Shown: piece after piece, positions 3,107 through 46,435 of the stretch
Layout: every line of letters starts with the position of its first letter
Numbering within the stretch: position 1 is the first letter of the stretch
NCBI RefSeq assembly: GCF_030253575.1
Contig: NC_080569.1
Coordinates: 21,698,001 to 21,762,000 of the forward strand
Source: Rhododendron vialii
Lineage: Eukaryota; Streptophyta; Magnoliopsida; Ericales; Ericaceae
Reading direction: 5' to 3'
DNA: 64,000 nucleotides
Notes under the pieces: model-generated
What the model saw: only the letters and a program-made list of their open reading frames with translations
Told to the model about the DNA's origin: nothing
Databases searched by the model: none
Position numbers and translations under genes: made by a program

Positions 3107-6100
3107 ATGGCCGTTTCTCTCTCTTCTACGGTTTATACAACAACGGTGTCAGCATCGGCTTCCTCCATCAAAGAGGGATCTCACAGGAAGTCGTGTTCGC
3201 TTACCAAACAAATTCCCTTCAGTTTCACTCCTCTCTCCTCCCGACCCAGGTAATCGAAGCTTCCACTTTTGATCTCTTGGATTTTTCTAATATTATCTAG
3301 AAAATAGCAATATTTGACTTTTCAGAACTTAGGATTTCCAGTGAAATGGTTAATTTTTCATTGTCAGTACTTTATTTAGTTAACGAGAAAATGAAGTGAA
3401 ATTGGTAATTTGAAGGTAAATTTTTTTGAGGGTTCGACAGTCAGGGTTGTCTAGGCCGGCTTATGCGCAATTCGACTAATCCCCTCCCTGTCTGGTCAAA
3501 GGAAGGCCATCCACGCTGGGATTAGGGAATTCACCAAAACATACTTTCTTGTGGCATGACCCCAAGAATGAAACCCTCATCAATTGACCGTCATCAATTG
3601 TGTGAGGAGAAAACCCACCAACCAACCCGACTAACGGTTAGCGTAAATGTATTTGCACTTGAAAAGACACAACAAATTGAATCTTGTACATTTTTCCAAC
3701 TTAGGTTTATACAAGAACAAAGAATGTATGTGTTTCTTTGTGGGGAACTTTTTAGAACATTTTAGGAGTGTATGGAAATTAGGATTTTCCCTTGTCGATG
3801 TGCTATGGTAAAAAAATTTCAAGTTTGTGTACTTGGAAAACTGGGATATTTTTGACAAGTGATTTCTTGTTTATAAAAATTCTGGGTTTTGTTTTCTTCT
3901 AGCTGCTGCTACTCTGATTTTGCAACTTCGCTGCAATATGTGCAGGAAGTTATTTAGAGTCCAAGCAACAGTCTTGCAAGAGGATGATAAGAAAGTGGCT
4001 GTTGAAGAATCCTTCCAACCAAAGAGTATTTGTGACGATGATGGGATAGGAACTCCCGGGGAGTCATCTGAGAGTTCATCCTCCAGTGGGTTGGAGAGTT
4101 GGGTTATTAAGCTTGAACAGTCAGTCAATGTTTTTCTCACGGTAAGTTTTCTTATTTTTATTCCTCTGAAATTCCATTAGCAATATGGTAATAAGGATGT
4201 TTGCAATTAGATCGCCTTAGACGTTTCTGAACCTTGAAGGTGTTGGAATGTAATTTTATGAAGTTGCATTGCAAACAATGAGAAGTTCGATGGGGATTGC
4301 CATGTTTGATACGAAACTTGAAACATGGATTATTTTGCATAGCCAATATGGATGGTGGATGTACTCGAATTACTGCTGGACTCCTAACATTAGAAGGTTT
4401 TTAGATTTCAAACAATCATTTGATATTTGCTCTGTGCTACTGATATCTACAATTCATTGTTGAATTGCATAGTAATGTAATATTTTAATTGATTAATTCT
4501 CATATTTTACCTATGTGTGTATAATATTGGCATTATGAGAGGCATGCAATTTCCTTATCAGTTTATTCTATGGGTCAAAAACTGTGTCTCCACTCCAATG
4601 TTTTCAATTATGATTAAAGGTGTTCCTGAAGGGTTTTTTGTGGGTAAGAGAGGACTTAGGCAAGGGGATCCTTTATCCCCTTACCTGTTCTTATTAGTGA
4701 TGGAGGCTCTCTCAGCTCTTTTCAAGTATAAAGTGCACCATCAGCCCTTTAGCTTTCATCCCAAATGCCAGCACTTTCCAATAACTCACCTTATATTTGC
4801 TGATGACCTCTTTGTTGTGTGTGGTGCTAAAGAGGATTTCGTTTCTGTTGTGGTTGAGGTTTTGAGGGACTTCCACTTGTTTTCTGAATTACAACCAAAC
4901 GTGCTTAAAAGTTCTATTTTCTATGCTGATGTGGATATTCCTACTAAAACTAGGTTGCATTCCATTCTTCCTATTCCAGAGGGTTCTTTGCCTGTGAAGT
5001 ATTTGGGGGTTCCTTTGATTTCAACTAGATTAAAGGCTAGTTATTGTTCTCAATTAAGGAGTAAAATTTTATCCAGAATTCAATCATGGTCCAATAAGTC
5101 TTTGACATATGGAGGAAGAGTTGAACTTGTTAATTCTGTACTATTTAGCATCCAAGTTTACTGGGCTTCTATTTTCATGCTACCTCAGAAAGTCATTCAG
5201 GATTTAGAACTTCTTAGAGCCTTTCTCTGGTCTGGTTCCGATCTCAACCACTCAGGGGCTAAAGTATCTTGGAAAGACATTTGTGTGCCTAAAGAGGAAG
5301 GAGGGCTTGGCTTTAGGCTCATGAAGGATTGGAACAGGGCTTCTATGATCAGACATCTTTGGGCAGTCTGCAAGAAGAGTGATACTCTATGGGTAAAGTG
5401 GGTGAATACATATATAAGTAAAGACAAATGTGTTTGGACTATGAATATCCCTCCTAATGTTTCATGGACAATGAGGAAAATCTTGAAGCTCGGAGACAAG
5501 GTTCAGCCTTGGATCACATACAAGGTTGGGAATGGAAATGATACTTTTCTATGGCTCGATAATTGACACCCTTCTGGGCCTCTGTACCAGAAGTATGGGA
5601 AGCAGGTGGTACATAATTTGAGCAGGTCTTTGTTCACCAAGGTCAGCTCCATTATTCAAGGGCACACCTGGGCTTGGCCTAGACAAAGGAATCCTATAAT
5701 CATGGAAATTATGCGAGGTGCTAATTTCTTTCCTGATCCTAATGTCCCAGATCAAGTTCACTGGAACCTCACAGTCACAGCCACAAAAACATACTCTGTA
5801 AGGTCTGCTTGGCATGCTTTTAGGGACCCTAAACCTCCTTTTCCTTGGTACAAAGCTATTTGGTTTAAACATCACACACCACGATGGGCACTTATTCAAT
5901 GGCTAGCTGTTTTGGAGAGGCTGTCTACTAAAGACAGACTTGCTTCTTGGGGAATGCAGATGGATTCTCAGTGTTGTCTCTGTTCTAGAGAAGATGAATC
6001 CCATTTCCATCTCTTCTTTACTTGCGCTTTTTCACAGCAAGTTTGGAGTGCAGTTCTTTTATTTAATGGGGTTAGTAATGTGGTCCAACTGATCTTGCAA

Positions 6101-9100
6101 GTGTAATGGCTTGGACTAACCAATGTTGGGGTGGTAGATCATTGTTGCATTCTGTTTTCAAGCTGTCTTTGGCAGCTACCATCTATTGGTTGAGGAGGGA
6201 GAGGAACAGCAGAATTTTTCAACATCATTGTAGAGATTTTTCATTGTTACGAAAGCTTATTATAAATGACATTCGCGGATGTATTAGTTCCTGGAAAAGG
6301 GTTAAACTTTCTAGTCGAAATTTAGGCATTGCTTCCTCTTGGAGAGTTCACAAGAGTATTTTTGATCCCTAATTGTACTGTGGATTGTTTTTTCATATGT
6401 TTTGAAGATTGGATGTGTCTGTACGAAGGGCTTGTCACTTGAGTTCTTTTGTTGCATGGTGCTTTAATAAGACTATGAGTTACCAAAAAAATTATTGGCA
6501 AGTATAGAAACTGTACACAATACGATAGCAATATTTAGCTAACAACATACGGATCTTCACTCACTCACTTACTCTTAATTTGCTTCCTTTGTCAGTGTAT
6601 GTGCCGTGACTTCTGTTTATGGTGGGTCCTATTTGTTTATCAATTGTATTTGACTTTATATTCATTCCAGGATTCAGTCATAAAGATTCTTGATACTCTG
6701 TACCAAGGCCGAGACTATGCAAGGTTTTATGTACTAGAAACTATTGCGAGAGTTCCTTATTTTGGTGAGTGCCAATGTTTCTTTACCTTCCATTTTTTGC
6801 TTAATTCCCTTCAAGAGGAATCTAAGGCTACATTAGCAGTTTCTTTATAGAAGAGTACATATTTTTGTCCCCAAAGAAATGGTTTTCTATGATTCATATT
6901 GGAGAACTGATCTTCTCAATTCATGAGAAGAAAGGGAAACTTGACTGCTAGAGGCCATTTTAAGTGCTAACCATTTTTCTTTTCTAAGTAAAGCAAATCC
7001 AATGAACATGATCCATGGTTAGGATATTCATCAGTTGCTACAAACTTTTACTGGTTTGTACTATCCCCTTAGAGAAGTGCTTTAAAACATATCAGGTTCC
7101 TGAAGAAGCTTTTTGCTTTCAAAGTACTTTGTACATTACTTTATATCCTGCCATTTGAAGTGTATACTTATGGTATCATTAAAACCCTATGGCAGCATTT
7201 ATCTCTGTTCTACACTTGTATGAGAGTTTTGGATGGTGGAGAAAAGCAGACTATCTGAAAGTGCACTTTGCTGAGAGCTGGAATGAGATGCACCATCTGC
7301 TTATTATGGAAGTAATGCTCTCGCTTTCAATCTTCCTTACATAATATCTGACCAGTCCTTTTCTTTTTATTTCCTTTTCCGATGTTTAATGAGAAAGCAA
7401 ACATGGTCCCAATAAAGTATATGCGTGATTAGTGTTGGCTTCTCAGTTTCTGTGTCTTTTCCATCCACTTCATTTTTACAGTTAATAACCAACAGTAACA
7501 AGCGGATGTCATGACACGCTTTTAGGAGGTAGAGATAGGCATGAAAATGTAGTAGTAATCTTAGGAGGACAACTGATGATGCCAACAGGACAATCACACA
7601 AATTAGTAGTTTCTTACTTGTAAAAGCTTGATGGCTTCATATGATTCCTAATAGCCTACAATACCTCATGACACTAGCTCCAAACTACTCTGGACTCTGG
7701 ATTTCTTTATATCACGCTTCCTTAGTTTATCCGACTATTATTGACGCTGGTTATTTGTTATTGTAGGAATTGGGGGGAGATGCCTGGTGGTTTGATCGCT
7801 TTCTTGCTCAACATATTGCAGTCTTCTATTATTTCATGATTGTCTTCATGTATGCTTTAAGTCCAAGAATGGCGTGTAAGTATATCTGATTTTCCCCAGC
7901 TACTTATTTTTCATGAATGTGATGGCATTCATGACACATATGTTCTCTTTGGAACTGCTCATATCTCTATGAAGAAGCAAATAGAGGCATCTGTCTAGAT
8001 TTAAAACCACAGCATGATTTTTTAAAATGCTTCCATAGGGAGTCCTGTTTTGTCAACTCACAAGAGGATAAAAAATAAGAAAAGAGAAAGAAACCTTTGA
8101 GCAATCTAAGTTAAGCAGTCGATCAGAGAGATTAGTGTAAAGCATTCTTCTATTGTACTGTTGTTTTAAGCATTTTGGTCTTTGGTGCAGATCATTTCTC
8201 TGAATGTGTAGAGAGCCATGCATTTGAAACTTATGACAAATTCATCAAGGCACAAGGAGGTATTTTCAAGTATTCAAGTGTTGGAAATCTACATTTAGTT
8301 GCAGCTGCTTGTGTTGTGGATGACCACAAAATTTGAAATAAACCAGTTTTATAACCATTGTGACCTTAGGTTTTTAATAGGCACGCCCAAATTCAAAGAG
8401 ATTATGCTTCTATACGTAGCTCATGTAAAGATCTTGCAGTATGCCTGGAATCTATATATCTGCTTAGCTCCTGAATGGTTTACTTTGCCCTATATTTTCA
8501 TCTCCTCCGTTAGATTCTTATGACATGAATCGTTTACCCTCGATAGAGCTCAATGGAGAAAACGGAATAATATAGCGACCCCAATTGATTCCGACTTTAA
8601 GGCTCAGTTTGGTTTGGCTTGGTACTGATATATCATCTGTCTTATCTGTTACAGAGGAACTGAAAAAAATGCCTGCACCTGAGGTTGCTGTGAAATACTA
8701 CACTGGGGGTGACTTGTACCTGTTTGGTGAGTTTCTACTTCCACTGCCTTTGAAGGAAAAGGAAAACACATGAGATTTAGAGTTTTTTTTTTTTTTTTTT
8801 GGTCTTTTTATCTCTGGTTCTCTGTCTTCCAGATCGGATATTTACAATTTTCAATCATTTTTTGTCCAGATGAATTTCAAACTTCAAGAGTTCCAAATTC
8901 TCGAAGGCCAAAAATAGGTAAAGCCGTAGTCTGATTTGATTGGTTGAGTATTGTTCAGATTGCTACATGCTTTATGGAAAACTAACATGTGAAAAAGTAT
9001 TGTTTTCGCAATTTTTGTTGCAAGCTACAAGTTTCTGTGTTATACTCAGTACCCAATCCACAAAATCAGTAAAGATATAGGTACCGAAAGGGAGGGGGGG

Positions 9101-10801
9101 GGGGAGGGAAATCGTACCGACCGACCGCGCCGGGCCATCCAAGAATTCTAAAAAAAAAAAACCGATGGGGCCCACGCAAGAATCAACAGCATCCGATGTG
9201 TGTAAGGTGTTTGATTTAAACACCCTTTTCCGGTGGCCGGAGACAGCCCTGCGCGGTCGGTCGGTACGATTCCCCCCCCCCCCTTTCGGTACACATAGCA
9301 TGACTCCCACAAAATTGACAGCCTCGTGTCACTGTTGCGTTAATGAGAGTAGGATGATACCTAGGTGGCTAGGTGTACCTTGGAGTTACCAATTCACGAC
9401 AGTTATCTGGTAGGATCTAGTCAAATAGGTGCCCGATTCATGTGCTTTTGATAGTTTGGAAAAAGATTATTGCAATTTCACATCTCAGGTTGTCATAAAG
9501 TCTATGACGTTTTTTTAGATTGGAAATGGTGAAAGTGAGGTGGTCTTGCATGTGATGGATATTTTTTGGTGATTTATATTTGTACATCGTGTCCATACCA
9601 ATCATAACTAGTGGATACCTTGGGCATTTGGGATCTGCAGTGCTCACTGTGTTGTGTGCTACAATTATGATCGTCATGATCAAACATCCTACAAAGGTAG
9701 GATAGGCATCGCACCATGTCTTATGCAATGGGACTTGAATTTAGTCGCTTGAGTCTAAGAGCTGTGACTTGATTCAACTCTTTCTTTTTATTTGATCTCG
9801 TCTTTCCATTATCATGGCTATTACTTGGCAAAGTGTCACTTTTTCGCTGTAGTCTTTGTCCTTGTTTTTTTTCTTTTCCTTTGTTTAGTTATGCCTACTT
9901 TATGTGCGTGTATTGGTAAGTGGTAAGCTCACTGCCGTTTGAGCGGGTAGCCTTTTTGCATTTGGACAGTAGACCCAACTTATTGTACATAGATTTTAAC
10001 CGAGAGGTCTGCAGGCGCAACACTTCCCTGAGGGAATGCTGCAAATAGGCCTGTCAATGGGCCGGATCCGATAGATCCGATTCGAATCCGATAGTGATAA
10101 TCCGAAAAATCCGGATCCAATCCGAAAATTCGAATCCGACCCGAAAACTCTTTTACTTCAAAAATTTTAGCCAAAAAAATTATATTTTTCAAAAAAAAAT
10201 ATTTTCCTAAAAAAATAAAAAATAAAAATACAACTTCTTAAACATTTTTTTTTCAAAATAAAAAATTTACTGTTTTTTTAAAAAAAATTAAAAAAAATAA
10301 TGTTCGGATTCAGATTGATAACGGATTCGGATTAATCCAAATACCGATCTGAATCCATATTTGGATTACCGGATTCGGATTATCAGATTATCGGATCGAC
10401 GTTATCGGATTCGGATTCGGATTTTTCGGATCGGATCCGGTCCTTTGACAGGCCTAGCTGCAAATTCTATCTGAGCCATTGTATCACTTTGTTTTCGGAT
10501 AAGTTCCTTGCATAGTTTACTACACAATAGCAAAAGTCTTGTTTACTTGAAATCTAACTTTTTGTTTCGTGACATGCTTTCGGCCAAAAAAAAAATGCAT
10601 ACTCTAAGTCTATGTTGTACTCAGCTCCCTGTATTTGTCATTCTTTCAGAGAATTTGTACGATGTGTTTGTTAACATCAGAGAGGATGAAGGAGAACATT
10701 GCAAGACAATGAAGGCCTGCCAAATTCATGGCAGCCTTCGGTCGCCTCATTCTTTTCAAGAGGACACCATTGAGGACGATTCGGGTTGTATCCCTCCCTG
10801 A
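3107..10801 (+). CDS. PTOX: plastid terminal oxidase (PTOX / IMMUTANS, ubiquinol oxidase 4), nine exons, premature stop near C-terminus
   Basis: Exons by frame and GT-AG sites: 3107-3249, 3946-4141, 6671-6764, 7196-7311, 7767-7875, 8191-8259, 8655-8726, 8870-8917, 10650-10801. The joined CDS is 999 bp (332 aa). Known role: a thylakoid di-iron quinol oxidase that passes electrons from plastoquinol to oxygen, needed for phytoene desaturation and for relieving over-reduction. Residues 1 to about 50 are Ser/Thr/Arg-rich, like a transit peptide, before KLFRVQAT. All six iron ligands are visible at E136, E175, H178, E227, E296 and H299, the same numbers I recall for Arabidopsis. Exon 8 encodes the conserved 16-residue block described as essential in IMMUTANS. 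Oddity: TGA at 10799-10801 is followed in frame by 21 family-like tail codons ending at TAG 10865-10867. Intron 2 holds a LINE; intron 8 is 1.7 kb with two MITEs. Identity is very sure; functionality is uncertain. Confidence 0.93.
3425..3640 (-). repeat. Au-SINE-like copy in PTOX intron 1
   Basis: On the minus strand the sequence contains GGGGATTAGTCGAATTGCGC followed by ATAAGCCGGCCTAGACAACCC. This resembles the 3' module of the plant Au SINE family (GGATTAGTCG...GCGC.AAGC.GGCCCGGACA). Three related pieces occur at about 11150, 52030-52190 and 52830-53030. The tRNA-related half is not clear here. Confidence 0.45.
4533..6372 (+). pseudogene. LINE ORF2 remnant: reverse transcriptase C-terminal part and zf-RVT domain
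   Basis: One frame runs from before 4533 to 5566 and shows the RT motif RQGDPLSPYLF, the catalytic FADD box (4797-4808) and the downstream YLGVPL and GG-type motifs. The frame is broken by TGA at 5564-5566, inside a WLDN.HP motif where plant LINEs normally have Trp, so TGG to TGA is likely. The same frame then continues to 6106 through the zinc-binding RVT domain (C-x2-C ... H-x4-C around 5975-6030). A shift of frame near 6105 leads into the last ~88 residues, ending at 6372. The RT N-terminal part and the endonuclease are absent. It cannot move on its own. Confidence 0.85.
4533..6491 (+). mobile_element. 5'-truncated LINE (non-LTR retrotransposon) in PTOX intron 2
   Basis: The element begins abruptly inside the reverse transcriptase palm domain and ends in a short A tract (TTACCAAAAAAA) after a TTTAATAAGA-type 3' end. 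An 8-bp direct repeat, TATTGGCA, lies at 4525-4532 and 6493-6500, as expected for a target-site duplication. The coding content is described under the pseudogene entry. It lies in the same orientation as PTOX and within intron 2 (4142-6670), so it makes up most of that 2.5 kb intron. 5' truncation and an A-rich end are normal for LINE insertions made by target-primed reverse transcription. Confidence 0.85.
9081..9292. mobile_element. GC-rich TIR MITE, copy 1, in PTOX intron 8
   Basis: Ends GTACCGAAAGG ... CCTTTCGGTAC are perfect inverted repeats. The pairing continues through a G/C homopolymer tract and TCGTACCGACCGACCGCGC versus GCGCGGTCGGTCGGTACGA. The centre carries GCATCCGATGTGTGTA, which recurs in the copies at 17.76 kb and 19.57 kb. 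There is no coding capacity. A candidate duplication, ATATAG/ACATAG, is imperfect. Confidence 0.75.
10046..10456. mobile_element. hAT-type MITE in PTOX intron 8
   Basis: The inverted ends TAGGCCTGTCAA ... TTGACAGGCCTA match perfectly. They are flanked by the exact 8-bp direct repeat GCTGCAAA at 10038-10045 and 10457-10464. An 8-bp target duplication is the hallmark of hAT transposons. The inside is rich in GGATCCGA / GGATTCGG repeats that fold back, with an AT-rich centre and no transposase. Confidence 0.85.
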
Positions 10802-10867
10802 GCAGATTGTGAAGGTATTGTAGATTGTATGAAAAAATCTTTAACATCTCCACAAGCAAAGGAATAG
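10799..10867 (+). other. in-frame stop and conserved post-stop tail of PTOX
   Basis: After the TGA the same frame continues with GIVDCMKKSLTS and ends at TAG 10865-10867. Plant PTOX proteins, as I recall them, end in a closely similar GIVDC.KKS.TS tail. The stop therefore looks like a recent single-base change or an assembly error rather than the natural end. Confidence 0.75.
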
Positions 10868-20806: not shown

Positions 20807-21052
20807 CAGATTACAAAAAAACGAATCGAATGAGAAACGCCCGCCTAACGTGGTCAGTTTCCACCCTCACAACAAACCCCCTCCCTCTCTCTCTCTAAAA
20901 TCAAACCACATGGATCCACTGTGCCTACAAAATTCACTCCCTCCCCCCTCCCTCACCCTTCTCCACTCGCGTCCGAACCCCAACATCCTCCTCACAACGC
21001 AACACACAACTCATCACTATATTCCATGTAGAGAAAGTCCGTGCACTCGTGT

Positions 21053-24000
21053 ATGGGAGGAGGAGAGAGCTCGGTGGGGCCCCTGGTGCCCTCGGTGAAG
21101 TCCGAACCGACGCCGTCCGATGCCGTCGCGGCGGCGCTGCCCTCTCCGCCGCACGAGGAGGCGGCAGCGGAGGAGAGTGAGCTGGACAGGGATTTCCTGT
21201 GCCCTATCTGCATGCAGGTCATTAAGGACGCGTTTCTGACGGCTTGTGGACACAGCTTTTGCTACATGTGCATCGCGACTCATCTTCAGAACAAGCGCGA
21301 TTGCCCTTGTTGCGCCCATTATCTCACCCCCAAGCACATTTTCCCCAATTTCCTTCTCAATAAGGTGAGATATTTTGTTTTTTAATGCCTTGTTTCCCTT
21401 GTTTGTTGGACTCGTTTGTAATTTATTTGTTTATTGAGTTTGTCTATGACTATGACTCTGATTTGGACCGAAATTCTGATTGAATTCAATTACAAGTCTC
21501 CGGCAATTTTGACATAGATCCCAACTAAAGGTGGGGAAGGACGGAAGGGAAGTTCAGTTCAAGGTATATGGGATAACAAAGCTTTCGAAGCAAGCTAAGC
21601 AATAGCGCACTTAAGTGACTGAAGGAAGAGCGCTATAAAGAAGGATGGTTTGCTCGGGTAGGGAATGAGTCAATAGTAAATTTGAGATTTCCACACCATC
21701 TAATGCAAATATGGAATGGTAGGGGAAGCAACCAAACTCATTCTACGCACCGCATGCTCGCAATAATTTTGTTAATAATGTGTGTTCATATAGGTATCCT
21801 GATACAAACCCTTGGGTAAAACTCACCCTTGAAAACTGGCTTACAAGGGGAGGGTGCCTGAGAGCTTTTATGTACATGGCCAAGCCCATACTTAGCAGCC
21901 GATGTGGGACATTAGGATCGTAACATATTCCACCCCTTATATTTTTTGTATAGCAATACCATGATATGATGAGGCATCCTGTGGTGCTTGTGTATCCCAA
22001 TTCGATACGTAGTCCTACGATTACTTGTTAAAGAATAATCAGACCTTGTTTAACGTATGTGTCCTGAATTCCTGATACATTTCATGGATAAATGAAAAAA
22101 CAATACATGATATGTATCCCTATTGGGCGACACGGCTTATGTTCAAGGGAAAGAGCTATAATCCGCTGCTATAAAAGAGCTTAAAACATAAGACGAATGG
22201 ATACATAATTGAGCCCTTGTTCACCCTGAGTCCAAGCCTCTAGGCTTAGAACAAACTTTTTTTTACTCTCTGTCTCTCTCTCTCTTAGCTTCACCTAAAA
22301 TGAATGATATCTCCTCAAAGACTCACTACACTTATGCACAATGAGACAAATGCCCTAGTCTGACTCAGCCGCTTGCCTTACTAAACCTGTAGATTGTCCA
22401 GTGGATATTATATCTTCGTTGCTAATTTGTTATACTAACATCTACATCTAATTCTGTAGCTATTGAAGAAGACTTCTGCTCGTCAAATAGCAAGACATGG
22501 AACTCCTTTTGAACAGCTTCGTCAGGCATTGCGAGAGGTCAGTTGTTTGCACTTTGGAATATTTTGAACATTAAATTCTGAGCTTTATCATGCTATTTAG
22601 AGTGCCCTTGTTCTCTTTGGTTCTGTTGAGATTTGATTGGCACAGCTCAATAAAGTCCATAAGTGAGTATTCCTGCTGTTAAAACAGAATTGTCTTTTTC
22701 TTTTTGACCCGGCATATAGCTTAGGTTCATTCTCCAATAGTCCTTTGTTCAAACATTATTTTGTCCCTTAGTCCATTTAAAATTCATCAACATAACCGAA
22801 TACGAGTAATATGAAGTGCATTGCACTATGAACAAGATGCGAATATCTTGCACCCTTTTCTTGTGTTGCTTGTTTTTGTTTCATTGTATTTCGAATCTTC
22901 GATATAAGATTTGGTGATTTTCTGGTTGAAATATTTCTGTAGACTTCTTAAGATACTCTAGGCAAGATTGCAATGAATCCTTCTCATTCTAGCATCTCAA
23001 GTTGTTCATATTTAGAGGCTAGATGGAGGGACTCTCTTGGCTTAATAGGAAGTTACTAGTCTTACCTAGGGCTGTTACAAACTTGACCGGACCGAAAAAG
23101 ACCGAAAAAACCGACTGATCGGTTCGGTCGGTCCAGGGGCATTTTTTGGTGGTTCGGGGTGGACCGAACCGAACCGAACCGACCTAGGTCGGTTTGGTCT
23201 CGGTTTTCTGGAAATCTATACGGACCGAACCGAACCGAATGCGGACCGAACCGACCGAACCGATGTAGGACCGAACCATATATATTATATATATTTATTA
23301 TAAATCTATATATAATAAATAAAATAGGTGAAATTGGCCCACTATCAAGAAACACTTTTATAAAAAAACAGGTGGAATGGGTTTTTTTTAAATTGGCCCA
23401 TTTTTAATTTTTTATCTTTGGCCCAACTAGGCCCAATTCGGTCAGACCGAATTCTCAGACTAGACCGAATCCACCCTGAACCGAACCGAACCGAACCGAA
23501 ATTAATACCGGTCGGGATCGGTCCCGGAATTATATACCCCGAACCCGATCGGTTTCCGGCAAATCCACCCCGAACCGAACTAAACCGACCGAATAACACC
23601 CCTAGTCTTACCTTCTCCCTCTAGGGATTAAACTGTAATAATCTAATGGAAAAAGGTTTGCAATTTCTTTCCTTTTGGTTTAATCAGGCGTCTCCTGTTC
23701 ATAGTTGACTGTTGTTGTTTAAGGATGACATATGGCATTTGTTGCTTGGCCAGAATGCAGAAGCCTTCGTATGGTGCCTCAATCTATCCTTGTCTGGCTA
23801 AGAAAGTAATACAATCACTGTTAAGTGTAAAGCATGGATTGTAGCCTTTTTGCTTAAGTAACTCTCACTGATCGTTATGCACGACCACGCTATCAATAGA
23901 TGTTCCCTGTGGAAATCTCTTTGCGAGCTGGGTCCTACATTGGTCAACTTTAGTTACTTCTCCAGTTATTAAGAATACAACAAATTCTAATGGTGGATAG

Positions 24001-28407: not shown

Positions 28408-31400
28408 CTTTGTTCTCTGTATTATTCAGGTCAACCATGGCTTTATTTCCTTCTTGTTTGTTCCAGCATAGAATTTGATCGAGATGATGAATTGTTTGCT
28501 ACTGCCGGAGTTTCGAGGCGCATCAAGGTCTTTGAATTTGCTTCGGTATGTGTTGGACACTTGTTCTGGTCTGAGCAGCATTATCTTTCTCTGTAGGCTT
28601 GATATTGATTTCTATACTGGTTAGGGCAGATACTGGGACCTCAGCTGACGAATATGGTTTCTGTGAAAGAATTTTTAGTGTTTCTGCCAAGGGACTACAT
28701 GTCAGCCTACACTGTGTAGATGTTCTAATGGAAAACATGGGCATACATTCAGCAACAATTAGTGAAAAATCTATTTGTGGTATATCTTACAATAAAAGAA
28801 CATTGTATGGTTTCTTGGTAATGACGATTTTGTTAATTCCTCCAAAATCCAATATTTCATATGGCATTTTACATGTCCTGTTTAAGGTACTTCTAGAGCT
28901 TTGGCCAACATAGCTGAATGACCACGCCAGTTTCATACTTCAATTTTAATCACAGGAATACTCTTTTTCAACATAAAAGAGACCTATTAATATGAAACTC
29001 ATTGTGTTCAATCTTTGAAATAAATTTTTTCATACAAGGCAAATACTTTTGTTTTCTCACTAGGTAATTATTGTCCATTTCTTGCTTTCTAGGTGGTAAA
29101 TGAGTCAGCAGATGTGCAATGTCCAGTTGTGGAAATGTCCACGCGGTCTAAACTTAGTTGCCTAAGCTGGAATAAGTATACAAAGAACCATATTGCCAGT
29201 AGCGATTATGAGGGGATAGTAACTGTGTGGGATGTAACTACTCGTCAGGTAATTTGGCTTCCACTGAGTTCTCTATTTTCCTTGTTCCTTTAAAGCTTTG
29301 GCTCCTCTGGCATCTCTATATAAGTTGGCTTTGTTTTGCGTCATTTGACATCTCTAAATAAGTTGGCAGTTTTTTAGCTCCCGCACTTGCATCCCCAACA
29401 TGAAAATAGCCAGACAGCATTCCAAACAACTTCAGCTTTTTTCGCGCATCTTTGATAGCAGAAAGCCAAGAAAATATTAAAAAGAGTTGGCTTTTGTTGA
29501 TATACCAAACGAGTAGTAAATAGGAGATGAATTTGAAGAGATATGCAAACACTCTTGACCTTTATTAACCCAATCTTTTATTTTCAGAGTGTGATGGAGT
29601 ACGAAGAACATGAAAAACGAGCATGGAGCGTAGATTTTTCGCGCACTGAACCTTCAATGCTGGTATCCGGCAGTGATGACTGCAAGGTACTTGTTACACA
29701 TGAAAGCCTAGTTTTCCTCCCCCTGAAAACTGCATCTTAGTTCACAACAACGAATTCATATTGACAGGCATAGCTTCTAAAAAATGAGGTAGAAGAGACT
29801 TATCTCCGTGTAACATTTGGTCCTTCTGGAAGTATTTATTACAGTAAGTATGTGAAATCAGATGATAGCTTTTGGAAGGAAGTCAGATGATAACATTTGT
29901 TGTTGTTGACTCAAGTATTGGAGGAAGATATTCGATCTTTTTTTGAGAATATTTAGCTGTAAAGCTTTTACCCAAATAGTTCAATGAGCATTTTTGGTTT
30001 GTGTGATAGAGGTAGTAATAGGTAAAAATTCAGCTGAGGTCGTTTAGGTCAGAGGTTATTTATTTTCTCCATATGCCAGCATTTCCTTCGCTCCTTATTT
30101 AGAGTTGCTATTTTAGCGCTCTATTTAGAACTAAGGTCGATCCAATTTGGAGGAAGTTTAATGGATATGTAGTGATCATCTCTTGGAAAGGAATTGGGTG
30201 ATTTTCACTTGGTCCCGTATCAGTTGCACTGAATGTCTGCTCTTTGTTTGCAACAGGTAAAAATTTGGTGCATAAAACAGGAGGCTAGTGTTCTGAATAT
30301 TGACATGAAAGCCAATATATGTTCTGTCAAGTATAATCCGGGATCTAGCATTCACGTCGCGGTATGTCCCTCTCAAATCCTGTCTTCTCCGGTCAGTGAA
30401 TATGGGTATGATTTACCATCTGCTCCCTCTTTACCATTTGTTTGTCAATTTCAGCAAATGTGCCCTTTAATCGGGTCAACAGTAGAGTGAAAAAAATCAT
30501 TGTTTCCATCATCTAAAAGATCCACGTAGTTGTTACAGTTTTTAAAATCGTCTAGAAAAGAAGAAAATGAAAAATATATACAATTTTGTCCTGAATTGTG
30601 AGAAATGGACTAATAAAGTGGGACAGAGGGAGCGGTATCTAGTGTGAGAGTTTTTTTTTTTTTTTTAGATGGGTAGTGACAAGTTAACGACTTATGTTTT
30701 TGCAGGTAGGTTCTGCGGATCACAACATTCATTATTATGACTTGAGAAATGTCAGCCAACCACTGCATGTTTTCAGTGGACACAGGAAAGCTGTTTCATA
30801 TGTAAAATTTCTGTCCAACAATGAACTTGCTTCAGCGTCTACTGACAGCACATTGCGATTATGGGATGTCAAAGAAAATCTTCCAGTAAGTTACAGCTTG
30901 GTAGTTGAGCAATTCCTAGTATTCAGCTCCTTTAGTTATATAAAAAGCCGTCTTTCTACAATAGTTCACCGATTAATATATATTTGAGGGTGATTATTCA
31001 GGAAATAGTAATGTTAACATATTTAGTCGGTGTTGGTGTGATGAGTGTCTCTGGAGGGGAGGGCAGGATGTGCTACACTGGAATGTATGCATTGTGAAGA
31101 AAAGAACGTAATTTTTGGAGGAATGGAGCTCCTCTGCAGTCCAATTCTGGACTGAATTGTGTCTGTGAGGCCCATCATGGATTCCATTTGAATGATCCAA
31201 GCTGTTCCTTCTCTCTGTCCAGACTTCAGACGTGTTGATCAGCCACAGGAAAATATCACTTAAATGGAGGAGCCAGTTTGACTGAATCACACTTGTCTTT
31301 GAAAACAGGGAGGTGAAACCATTAATTTACTCCATGACGAGTGTGGTTAGGTCATGAACCTACCGATATTTTTTCAAGAAAACCAACTTACCTTGTGAGA

Positions 31401-36449: not shown

Positions 36450-38096
36450 TGGCTGACCTTTTTTCCTTGACTTCCCTTATGCCTCCATATCCAAACCCTA
36501 GATACCTTTGCTTACATGATGTAGAGTTACCACATTACCCTCGTCATGAAATGTTTGATAAAACTTTATTTTATACTCTTTCCCTAAATATTGGTCTATC
36601 TTTTCATCTTTTAGGTTCTAAAAATTGAGGAACAATATTAGAAATTATGTGTTGTATTTTTTGGGGGTGAAACTGTGTTGTAGTTCGAATGCAATTACTG
36701 CATATCTTTTTAAGAAATTAAAATCTCTCAAAAAGTACAAGATTATTGAACAAAAGAGGAAAGATTTGACAGTTACATGCATATCAGTTTAATTAGAATC
36801 CTAAAAAAAAAAATGCTATTTGTGATTTTTTATTTAAATTTCTCTTTGTGACTTCATGTATTTCATTGTTATCTTTTATATTTCTCGTCTAATTTAATAG
36901 ATAAATTGTTATTGGTGACTTCATATATTTCATTATTATCTTTTTACATTTCTCATGTAATTCCATAGTAAGCGCTACACATACATCTAAAATTAAAAAA
37001 GATGCCAAGACCCATTATAACACGTGAAAAGAAGTACTTAAAGTGCGAATGGCGCATGAGTTTTTGATAGTGAGCTTAACTGAATTTATTTATTTATTTA
37101 TTAATATGTAAACTTAACTTGATGGTTTATGTTTAGATTGTTTTTGTGATATTTCTCAAATAACGTAAGACTATGATAATATGGTAGGGTCATAGTACCT
37201 TCAGAATTCTAAAGAAAAACATTTCAAAAAGAAACCTTTACAAATAAAAAGTAAAGATTTTCAAAAATTGGAACCTTTTTCAAATGAGAACAAGCCTTCT
37301 TGTAATATAAGAAACCGTAGGACCTAATGCAAGAAAAAATTATTTATGTATATTTTGCAATAATGTAATGCAAGCATTTCACCTACCTAATATTAGAAAT
37401 CGTCTTGATGACTTTTTGTGATCGGAGACGAGTCTTATCTGAGTGAGGTCCTGAATATTTGTTTGTGAGTTTAGGCCTTATTTGTGGTTGCTTTTCTTGA
37501 TGTATTGTTTTCTTATCAATGAAAGCACCTCTAAACTTTGACCAAAAAAAAAAAAAATTTACACTTATCTAAGATGAATAGGAACCATTTTTTCTTTTTC
37601 TGTTCAACATAAATAAATAAATAATGGGATAAGTTTGTTACGGGTGGCTACTGAAACTTTGTAAATTGCAGAGGCTGATGGTGTAAATATAATTAAGTGT
37701 AGGGTCCATCACGGATATTCAGAACCTACCTTCTAGGGCTTCAAAATGTAGAGAGAGAAAAGGGAGAGTTTTTCGCTTCAATCTCCCTCTCTAGACTCTG
37801 TTCCCCAGCACCTGAAGCAAAACCACCTCAACCCATGCATCTTCTCTGCAATACAGCTTTCGGGTCTTCACATTCCAATTACAAAACTTAAACATCTGCA
37901 CAAAAAAGGTGTTAATTTTTCATTTGTAAGTAGTAAGCTCTTTCTTTTTCTATTTCCTTCTTGTTTTCCATTGATTTTGTCATCAGATTCTCTTCATACA
38001 ACAAAAAGTGTCGTTACCCAATTCGAGATTGCTATTTTTTTAAAATCTTGATTGAATTGAAGAACATATAGTATTTGTTTGGGGTGGGAGAGTTTC
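36450..38096. other. spacer and upstream region of the CLMP1-like gene
   Basis: AT-rich spacer. A retroelement-tail-like piece ends in GACC plus an A-run at about 37543-37556, after TTTTCTTATCAATGAAAGC. The 300 bp before the gene (37750-38096) contain GAGAGAGAAAAGGGAGAG and CTCCCTCTCTAG leader-like tracts. No certain TATA box. Confidence 0.4.
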
Positions 38097-40415
38097 ATGG
38101 GGAAATCTGGGGGTAGGAAAAAGAAAGGTGGTGTTAACCAAAACCAGGTTTCAGGAGCTAATAACCCTATACCATATGCTAATGGTGGTGTTGATTTGAA
38201 CTCTTCAATTTTATTGAAAAGAGCCCATGAGCTCAAAGAGGAAGGAAACAGGAGATTTCAAGCCAAAGATTATGTGGGTGCTCTTGAACAATATGATAAT
38301 GCCCTTAAACTTACCCCCAAGACACACCAGGACCGAGCTGTGTTTCATAGCAACAGAGCGGCTTGTTTGATGCAAATGAAGCCCGTAGACTATGAAACTG
38401 TGATTTCTGAGTGTTCTATGGCGCTTCAGGTTGAGCCCAAATTTGCCCGGGCCTTACTTCGTAGGGCTAAGGCATTTGAGGCTATTGGAAAATATGAAAT
38501 GGCGATGCTAGATGTGCAGGCTCTATTGGGTGCTGAACCAAACCACAGGGATGCTTTGGAGATTGGACGGCGATTGAGGACAGCTCTCGGGCCCCATCAC
38601 GAGGCCCAGCTGGACCTCCAAAGCCGCCCTTCTCCGGCGGCTCTAGGGGCTTCTGTGGTACGTGGAGCACCGGTTTCTGGTATTGGACCATGTTTACCAG
38701 CAAGGCCCATGCCAAAGAAGGCAGCAGCTTCGGCACTTGGGCCAGTTGTATTGCCAAGTGATAATAAGCCGGATAAGCCACAACTGGTTCCGCTTGCTGA
38801 AAGTGGCCCTAAGGTCAACAACCACTTACCAAAGCTTGCTTTGAAGCCTTCAAATGGTTCTACAAAATCCAATGCGACTAAGGGTAACCAAAAGGAACAG
38901 GCAACTTCATCCGTGTCCCTGGCATTGGAGACTGCAGTTAAGTTGAGGCCACTGAAGCTTGTTTATGATCATGACATAAGGCTAGCCGAAATGCCTGTGA
39001 ATTGCAGCTTTAGAGGGTTAAGGGAGATTGTAAGCAAGCGCTTCCCACCTTCAAAGTCAGTTTTGATCAAGTACAAGGATAGTGATGGTGATTTAGTAAC
39101 TATAACATGTACTAAAGAACTCAAGTTGGCAGAGTCGTCTGTTGATGGTGTTATTGTAGAAGATCCTGAGACAGACAAAGTCGACTCAGTTGGGATGTTG
39201 AGATTGCACATTGTTGATGTGGGTCCGGAGCAGGAGCCACCTATACTGGAAGAGGAGGAGGAGGAGAAGTCTCTAACTACTGAGGAGATAAAAGGAGATG
39301 AGAGTGGTTCACATTCTTCTCTGGGTGATTCTACCATGGAAAGTGTGGATACCGAAATAGATAAGCCAGCAAAGGAACCTCCCAAGGAAAAGTCTGGAGC
39401 TTTAGAGGACCCTGAGTGCAAAGAAGTGGAGATGGACGACTGGTTGGTTGAATTTGCTCAGTTATTCCGGAGCCATGTGGGTATTGACCCAGACGCCCAT
39501 ATTGATTTGCATGAACTTGGGATGGAGCTGTGTTCAGAAGCCCTTGAAGATACAATAACCAGTGAAGAGGCCCAAAGCCTTTTTGATAAGGCTGCCTCAA
39601 AATTCCAGGAGGTGGGGGCATTGGCTTTCTTCAATTGGGGCAATGTACATATGTGTGCCGCAAGGAAACGGATTCCCATTGATGACTCCGCTGAAAAAGA
39701 GTTGGTGGCAACACAGCTTCAGGCAGCTTATGAATGGGTGAGAGAAAAATACTCTCTGGCCAAAGAGAAGTACGAGGAAGCAATGAAGATTAAACCTGAT
39801 TTTTATGAGGGGTTACTTGCTTTGGGCCAGCAACAATTTGAAATGGCAAAACTTCATTGGTCCTATGTAGTGGCTAAGAAAGATGATCTCTCAAAATGGG
39901 ATCCTAGTGAAACTATTGGACTTTATGACAGTGCAGAGGAGAAAATGAAAGCTGCTACTGAGATGTGGGAGAAGGTGGAGGAGCAGAGAGCTATTGAGCT
40001 AAAAGATCCAAGTGCAAACAAGAGGGAAGAAGTGAAAAGAAAGAAACAAGGAAGTGGTAACGAAGGTGAGTCCTCTGGGAACAGTGGTCGAGGAGAGATT
40101 TCAGCTGTTGAAGCAGCAGAACAGGCAGCGATGATGAGATCACAGATACATCTGTTTTGGGGTAACATGCTTTTTGAGCGTTCTCAAGTTGAATTTAAAC
40201 TGGGGTTGGATGTTTGGAAAAAGAACATGGATGATGCTGTTGAGCGATTCAAGCTTGCTGGGGCTTCTGATGTCGACATTGCAACCGTTTTGAAAAACCA
40301 TTGCTGTAATGATGATGCAGTTCAAGGGGATGACAAGAAAGTTGTGAAACTAAGTGATGACGTGGCTGATAAGGCAGATAAAAATGCTGACGCAAGTGAA
40401 GTAGTGGTAGAGTGA
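38097..40415 (+). CDS. CLMP1: PHOX/CLMP1-type TPR and PB1 domain protein
   Basis: One uninterrupted frame of 772 aa, starting at ATG 38097 (MGKSGGRKKKGG, the family's usual N-terminus; an upstream in-frame TTG was ignored). Seen: basic Lys/Gly N-terminus; three TPRs at about 41-150 (AHELKEEGNRRFQAKDYVGA...); a PB1 domain at about 285-377 (PLKLVYDHDIRL ... KYKDSDGDLVTIT ... GMLRLHIVDV); an acidic Glu run at about 384-392; a conserved C-terminal helical/TPR region from about 445 (MDDWLVEFAQLFRSHVGIDPDAH, FFNWGNVHMCAARKR, LLALGQQQFEMAKLHW) and a last TPR-like part with HLFWGNMLFERSQVEF. In Arabidopsis the closest match I recall is CLMP1 (Phox family), needed for chloroplast separation and positioning and linked to the cytoskeleton. 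It could be another Phox paralogue; the family is very sure. Confidence 0.93.
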   Translation: MGKSGGRKKKGGVNQNQVSGANNPIPYANGGVDLNSSILLKRAHELKEEGNRRFQAKDYVGALEQYDNALKLTPKTHQDRAVFHSNRAACLMQMKPVDYETVISECSMALQVEPKFARALLRRAKAFEAIGKYEMAMLDVQALLGAEPNHRDALEIGRRLRTALGPHHEAQLDLQSRPSPAALGASVVRGAPVSGIGPCLPARPMPKKAAASALGPVVLPSDNKPDKPQLVPLAESGPKVNNHLPKLALKPSNGSTKSNATKGNQKEQATSSVSLALETAVKLRPLKLVYDHDIRLAEMPVNCSFRGLREIVSKRFPPSKSVLIKYKDSDGDLVTITCTKELKLAESSVDGVIVEDPETDKVDSVGMLRLHIVDVGPEQEPPILEEEEEEKSLTTEEIKGDESGSHSSLGDSTMESVDTEIDKPAKEPPKEKSGALEDPECKEVEMDDWLVEFAQLFRSHVGIDPDAHIDLHELGMELCSEALEDTITSEEAQSLFDKAASKFQEVGALAFFNWGNVHMCAARKRIPIDDSAEKELVATQLQAAYEWVREKYSLAKEKYEEAMKIKPDFYEGLLALGQQQFEMAKLHWSYVVAKKDDLSKWDPSETIGLYDSAEEKMKAATEMWEKVEEQRAIELKDPSANKREEVKRKKQGSGNEGESSGNSGRGEISAVEAAEQAAMMRSQIHLFWGNMLFERSQVEFKLGLDVWKKNMDDAVERFKLAGASDVDIATVLKNHCCNDDAVQGDDKKVVKLSDDVADKADKNADASEVVVE

Positions 40416-44481: not shown

Positions 44482-46435
<1,954 letters not shown>

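Follow-up and report, generated by a model that had tools for sequence, protein, structure and literature searches.

The 64,000-nt stretch of DNA analysed here, referred to as the window, contains a nuclear PTOX gene of the IMMUTANS type. The exons were located, joined and translated, resulting in nine exons with in-frame joins and 332 codons before the first stop (Table 1). GT..AG borders were found in all eight introns. An earlier note on this DNA had described a nine-exon PTOX gene; both its identity and its exon count were confirmed by the joined in-frame exons and by the match of the product to Pfam AOX (PF01786).

Table 1. Coding exons of the window PTOX gene, the in-frame stops and the coded tail (positions in the window).
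Feature	Position	Strand	Remarks
PTOX exon 1 (coding, beginning at the start codon)	3107..3249	+	Transit-peptide region; a targeting role would be expected from the family
PTOX exon 2	3946..4141	+	
PTOX exon 3	6671..6764	+	Holds E136
PTOX exon 4	7196..7311	+	First ExxH, E175/H178
PTOX exon 5	7767..7875	+	
PTOX exon 6	8191..8259	+	E227
PTOX exon 7	8655..8726	+	
PTOX exon 8	8870..8917	+	48 bases, presumed PTOX-type block; similar block in the cyanobacterial L001 and L002, none in phage L004
PTOX exon 9 including TGA	10650..10801	+	Second ExxH, E296/H299
In-frame TGA	10799-10801	+	After 332 codons ending GCIPP; C before, G after
Tail, 21 sense codons, ADCEGIVDCMKKSLTSPQAKE	10802..10864	+	Same frame as PTOX exon 9
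Second in-frame stop, TAG	10865-10867	+	

The Pfam AOX profile matched the 332-residue product at residues 122-306 (profile positions 46-214 of 216, E 1.8e-39), and the match stops 26 residues short of the TGA. All six di-iron ligands, four Glu and two His, were located by motif position, and the residues which we take to be these ligands are E136, E175, H178, E227, E296 and H299. The ligand columns were invariant in an alignment with two cyanobacterial PTOXs (L001 and L002, both from Symploca MAGs) and one cyanophage PTOX (L004, Synechococcus phage Sf-FS3). The complete set of ligands and the Pfam AOX domain are situated upstream of the TGA. The ligands and the exon 8 block had been described previously as intact, which was the case for both; exon 8, with its 48 bases, is taken here to be the PTOX-type block, which presumably defines PTOX and is required in Arabidopsis. 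The solved-structure matches up to E 0.001 comprised three distinct sequences, all of them of mitochondrial alternative oxidase. The AOX-type di-iron domain, the six ligands, the exon 8 block and the nine-exon plant structure were all present and, judged by its sequence, this is a PTOX of the usual plant type. Its membership in this family suggests that the product would be imported into the plastid and would act as a plastoquinol oxidase.

The gene resembles land-plant PTOX, as represented by Arabidopsis IMMUTANS and Liriodendron LtuPTOX, in its nine coding exons, its AOX domain and the location of its two ExxH motifs in separate exons, with the second one in exon 9. Nine exons were reported for Arabidopsis PTOX (PMC3794819) and also for Liriodendron LtuPTOX, the product of which has 358 aa (PMC6896000, section 3.2). 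In the Liriodendron gene the first ExxH was assigned to exon 5 (PMC6896000), whereas it is in coding exon 4 here; the two genes agree in the second ExxH, which exon 9 carries. The window PTOX differs from land-plant PTOX in that it ends at 332 residues, with the TGA inside the C-terminal tail.

Additional elements were detected in two introns of the PTOX gene. Intron 2 contains a region at 4493-6369 on the + strand with a reverse-transcriptase stretch (RVT_1, E 5.3e-14, ORF 4493-5563) and more open stretches up to 6369, which we consider to resemble a remnant of a non-LTR retrotransposon. Two elements with inverted-repeat ends were found in intron 8, at 9068-9305 and 10040-10462, with arms of 38 nt at 92% complementary and 33 nt at 88%. 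Elsewhere in the window, an open 784-codon ORF with PB1 and TPR matches was detected at 38061-40412 (+ strand), and four open exon-like stretches with 2OG-FeII_Oxy and DIOX_N matches at 44485-46430 (- strand), the latter gene being labelled ACC-oxidase-like on our assumption. A RING finger stretch at 21032-21382 (+ strand) and a WD40 stretch at 30688-30984 (+ strand) were also observed; taken together, we consider them to resemble the E3 ligase COP1.

The TGA of PTOX is found in the context CCC TGA GCA. The earlier report of a TGA after GCIPP, followed by 21 codons up to a TAG, was exact. The frame uninterrupted by the TGA would give 354 residues. With a stop-triplet frequency of 0.056 in the window, an open run of 21 codons has a chance probability of about 0.30, and the open frame past the TGA is therefore unremarkable by itself; it is the sequence of the tail which makes it exceed chance. 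In BLASTP with Arabidopsis IMMUTANS, for which a provisional sequence taken from no database was used, 13 of the 16 partnered residues of the tail were identical, and the claim that these codons specify the plant PTOX tail was right to this extent. The plant C-terminal tail is coded at this locus, but the TGA cuts it off. The identity between the window PTOX and the same provisional Arabidopsis sequence was 76% over 300 aligned positions, so the tail appears to be conserved about equally to the rest of PTOX.

As the tail is approximately as conserved as the remaining protein, constraint would have acted on it during most of the separation of this lineage from that of Arabidopsis, and a tail constrained for so long implies that the stop is either recent, or false, or bypassed. 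The recent change proposed in the earlier note is thereby supported only indirectly, through the agreement of the tail with the provisional Arabidopsis sequence. The conservation also suggests some role of the tail in plants. Extra C-terminal sequence was named as a feature distinguishing PTOX from AOX (PMC8336870). A literature search with the peptide strings of the tail and of the adjoining upstream peptide gave no match.

The relatives found among the genome contigs were 3 of the 36 matched stretches, all of them cyanobacterial (L001-L003), and L004 was the one phage PTOX examined among 102 matching phage records. In the viral contigs, nine stretches matched the pattern of the PTOX protein and none of them was a relative, two stretches matched the DNA pattern of the tail and neither was PTOX, and the exon 9 pattern gave no matches. 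L001 and L002 have the same ligands as the window PTOX and a similar exon-8-type block, and they have no plant tail; the identity of the window PTOX with L001 was 60%. They differ from the window PTOX in being single ORFs of 219 aa each, with no transit-peptide region. In the case of L004, the ligand motifs align and the tail is likewise absent; in contrast to the window PTOX, the protein has only 167 aa and no exon-8-type block. The number of residues past the last ExxH was 27 in both L001 and L002, 12 in L004 and 33 in the truncated window PTOX. The alignment revealed no plant tail sequence in L001, L002 or L004, and the tail is therefore regarded as a plant trait and not as a family-defining one. 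The PTOX of L003, a Thermosynechococcaceae MAG, at 1501-2066 on the + strand, is broken by an in-frame stop and a change of frame, representing either a real loss or an assembly fault, and was omitted from the alignment. Its last frame continues for 39 residues past the last ExxH with no plant tail sequence; the ends of prokaryotic PTOXs, as far as their sequences indicate, are variable, with L003 running longer.

If the stop were bypassed in translation, programmed readthrough would produce a minor tailed PTOX isoform. The retention of the tail in frame counts in favour of this, as does the stop itself, since TGA was reported to occur among Arabidopsis readthrough-positive mRNAs 25% above the expected frequency (PMC9293766, section 6) and the PTOX stop is of this over-represented type. 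The surroundings of the stop, however, are not of the permissive kind. According to the same section, A and U are the commonest bases on both flanks of the Arabidopsis readthrough stops (PMC9293766), compared with C and G at the PTOX stop. With the leaky stop of TMV, the replacement of the following base C by G abolished readthrough in planta, as described in PMC2754532, and G is also the base following the PTOX TGA, the TMV stop used in this comparison being UAG and not UGA. The 69-base RNA spanning both stops had a folding energy of -12.3 kcal/mol with a z value of -1.58, and 13 of 200 shuffled sequences were equally good; such an ordinary fold also counts against readthrough. The main text of PMC9293766, as distinct from the gene lists of its supplement, contains no mention of AT4G22260 or IMMUTANS. 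Judging from these features, programmed readthrough of the PTOX TGA is unlikely, and very little probability is assigned to the tailed isoform.

A splice form or RNA editing might also remove the TGA from the message, which is the most improbable of the explanations considered. In exon 9, 16 in-frame GT..AG pairs span the TGA, and half of them (8/16) retain the last ExxH and reach MKKS of the tail. These eight pairs, however, enclose only 15-39 bases, which is far under the lengths of plant introns, and with the eight longer pairs the product would lack the ExxH or the greater part of the tail. A hidden short intron across the TGA was rejected due to the length of the candidate pairs. C-to-U editing in plants is organellar and could not remove a TGA.

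A false stop would be a fault of the consensus or of the assembly, in which case the true PTOX is full-length, with 354 residues. This explanation is possible, at a rather low level of confidence. The frame is identical on both sides of the TGA, and the agreement of the tail with the provisional Arabidopsis sequence is what would be expected if the tail is still translated. The residue aligned at the TGA in the provisional Arabidopsis IMMUTANS sequence is Glu, and a single base change cannot turn a Glu codon into TGA; consequently, if Glu is ancestral, two nearby changes are needed, which also speaks for an error. A fault typical of long-read consensus is a pair of neighbouring indels within short base runs, and short C runs are present immediately 5' of the TGA. 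On the other hand, the error would require two exactly cancelling faults or, if the true codon is not one for Glu, a single substitution. The coding stretches examined were otherwise unbroken, including the 332 PTOX codons, the 784-codon ORF and the four ACC-oxidase-like stretches, the latter taken singly with their joins not assembled. These open stretches argue against a generally poor consensus, and one local fault would still be compatible with such a sample. With Glu as the ancestral residue, a single simple nonsense mutation would fit poorly, as two or more base changes, or else paired indels, would be required for the TGA. The TGA could thus have arisen through two real events or through paired consensus errors, or the ancestral residue of this lineage may have been a different one.

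It is also conceivable that this PTOX, as an allele or a duplicate, has been weakened or is degenerating, and is tolerated owing to an intact PTOX elsewhere in the form of a second copy, a homoeologue or the other haplotype. The loss of the conserved tail end with no other damage resembles early relaxation, and the reverse-transcriptase stretch of intron 2 and the inverted-repeat elements of intron 8 may be regarded in the same way. Transposons in introns are, however, ordinary in plants, and the remainder of the PTOX gene is intact. The tblastn search of the 64,000-nt window with the product detected no second PTOX copy beyond the nine exons. A degenerating allele or duplicate is considered doubtful.

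The earlier note had named five options and given them no order. Among the possible explanations, a truncated but active enzyme is placed first, a consensus error second and a weakened or duplicate allele third, whereas readthrough and RNA editing are unlikely. According to the first, which we hold with somewhat better than even confidence, the TGA is real and terminates translation, yielding an active PTOX precursor of 332 residues without the end of the plant tail. The intactness of the remaining 332 PTOX codons and of the eight splice junctions supports this explanation. Counted against it are the conservation of the tail, the two or more changes needed if Glu is ancestral, and the longer end of L003. 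Translation would end at the TGA, and the TGA position together with the 21 downstream codons would be lost from the protein. Nonsense-mediated decay was reported to be triggered by an exon junction located 50-55 nt or more past the stop or by a long 3' UTR (PMC12652563). No coding exon follows the one with the TGA, and the distance to the second stop, by which the 3' UTR is lengthened, is only 66 bases; decay of the PTOX mRNA is therefore not expected from the structure of the coding exons, and the mRNA would probably escape it. The 332-residue PTOX would then be imported, fold and oxidise plastoquinol as usual, and the tail would be an accessory segment which may be lost. The still undecayed tail suggests that the loss is recent.

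The Arabidopsis im mutant was rescued by chloroplast-targeted AOX1b, 1c, 1d and AOX2, and partially by AOX1a (PMC8336870). These are distant transgenic enzymes, and the rescue therefore serves only as an analogy. Considered together with the short-ended L001, L002 and L004, it suggests that a catalytically competent tail-less enzyme is the most likely product. The titles and abstract starts of the literature matches listed contained neither a tail-less plant PTOX nor any assay of a truncated one. The window case is probably a natural loss of the end of a non-catalytic tail, possibly a sequencing fault, and a recoding mechanism is unlikely. Two cysteines are coded downstream of the TGA, and both would be lost from the protein. 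A more speculative proposal, to which we attach little confidence, is that the conserved cysteine-bearing tail is a regulatory, non-catalytic segment of plant PTOX, and that this lineage either has lost its end at the protein level or makes both tailed and tail-less forms through rare readthrough.

If the stop is an error, the value of the finding is limited to a warning for annotation. If it is real and fixed, the plant represents a natural C-terminal truncation of PTOX, and would show whether attachment to the membrane, stability or redox control depends on the tail.
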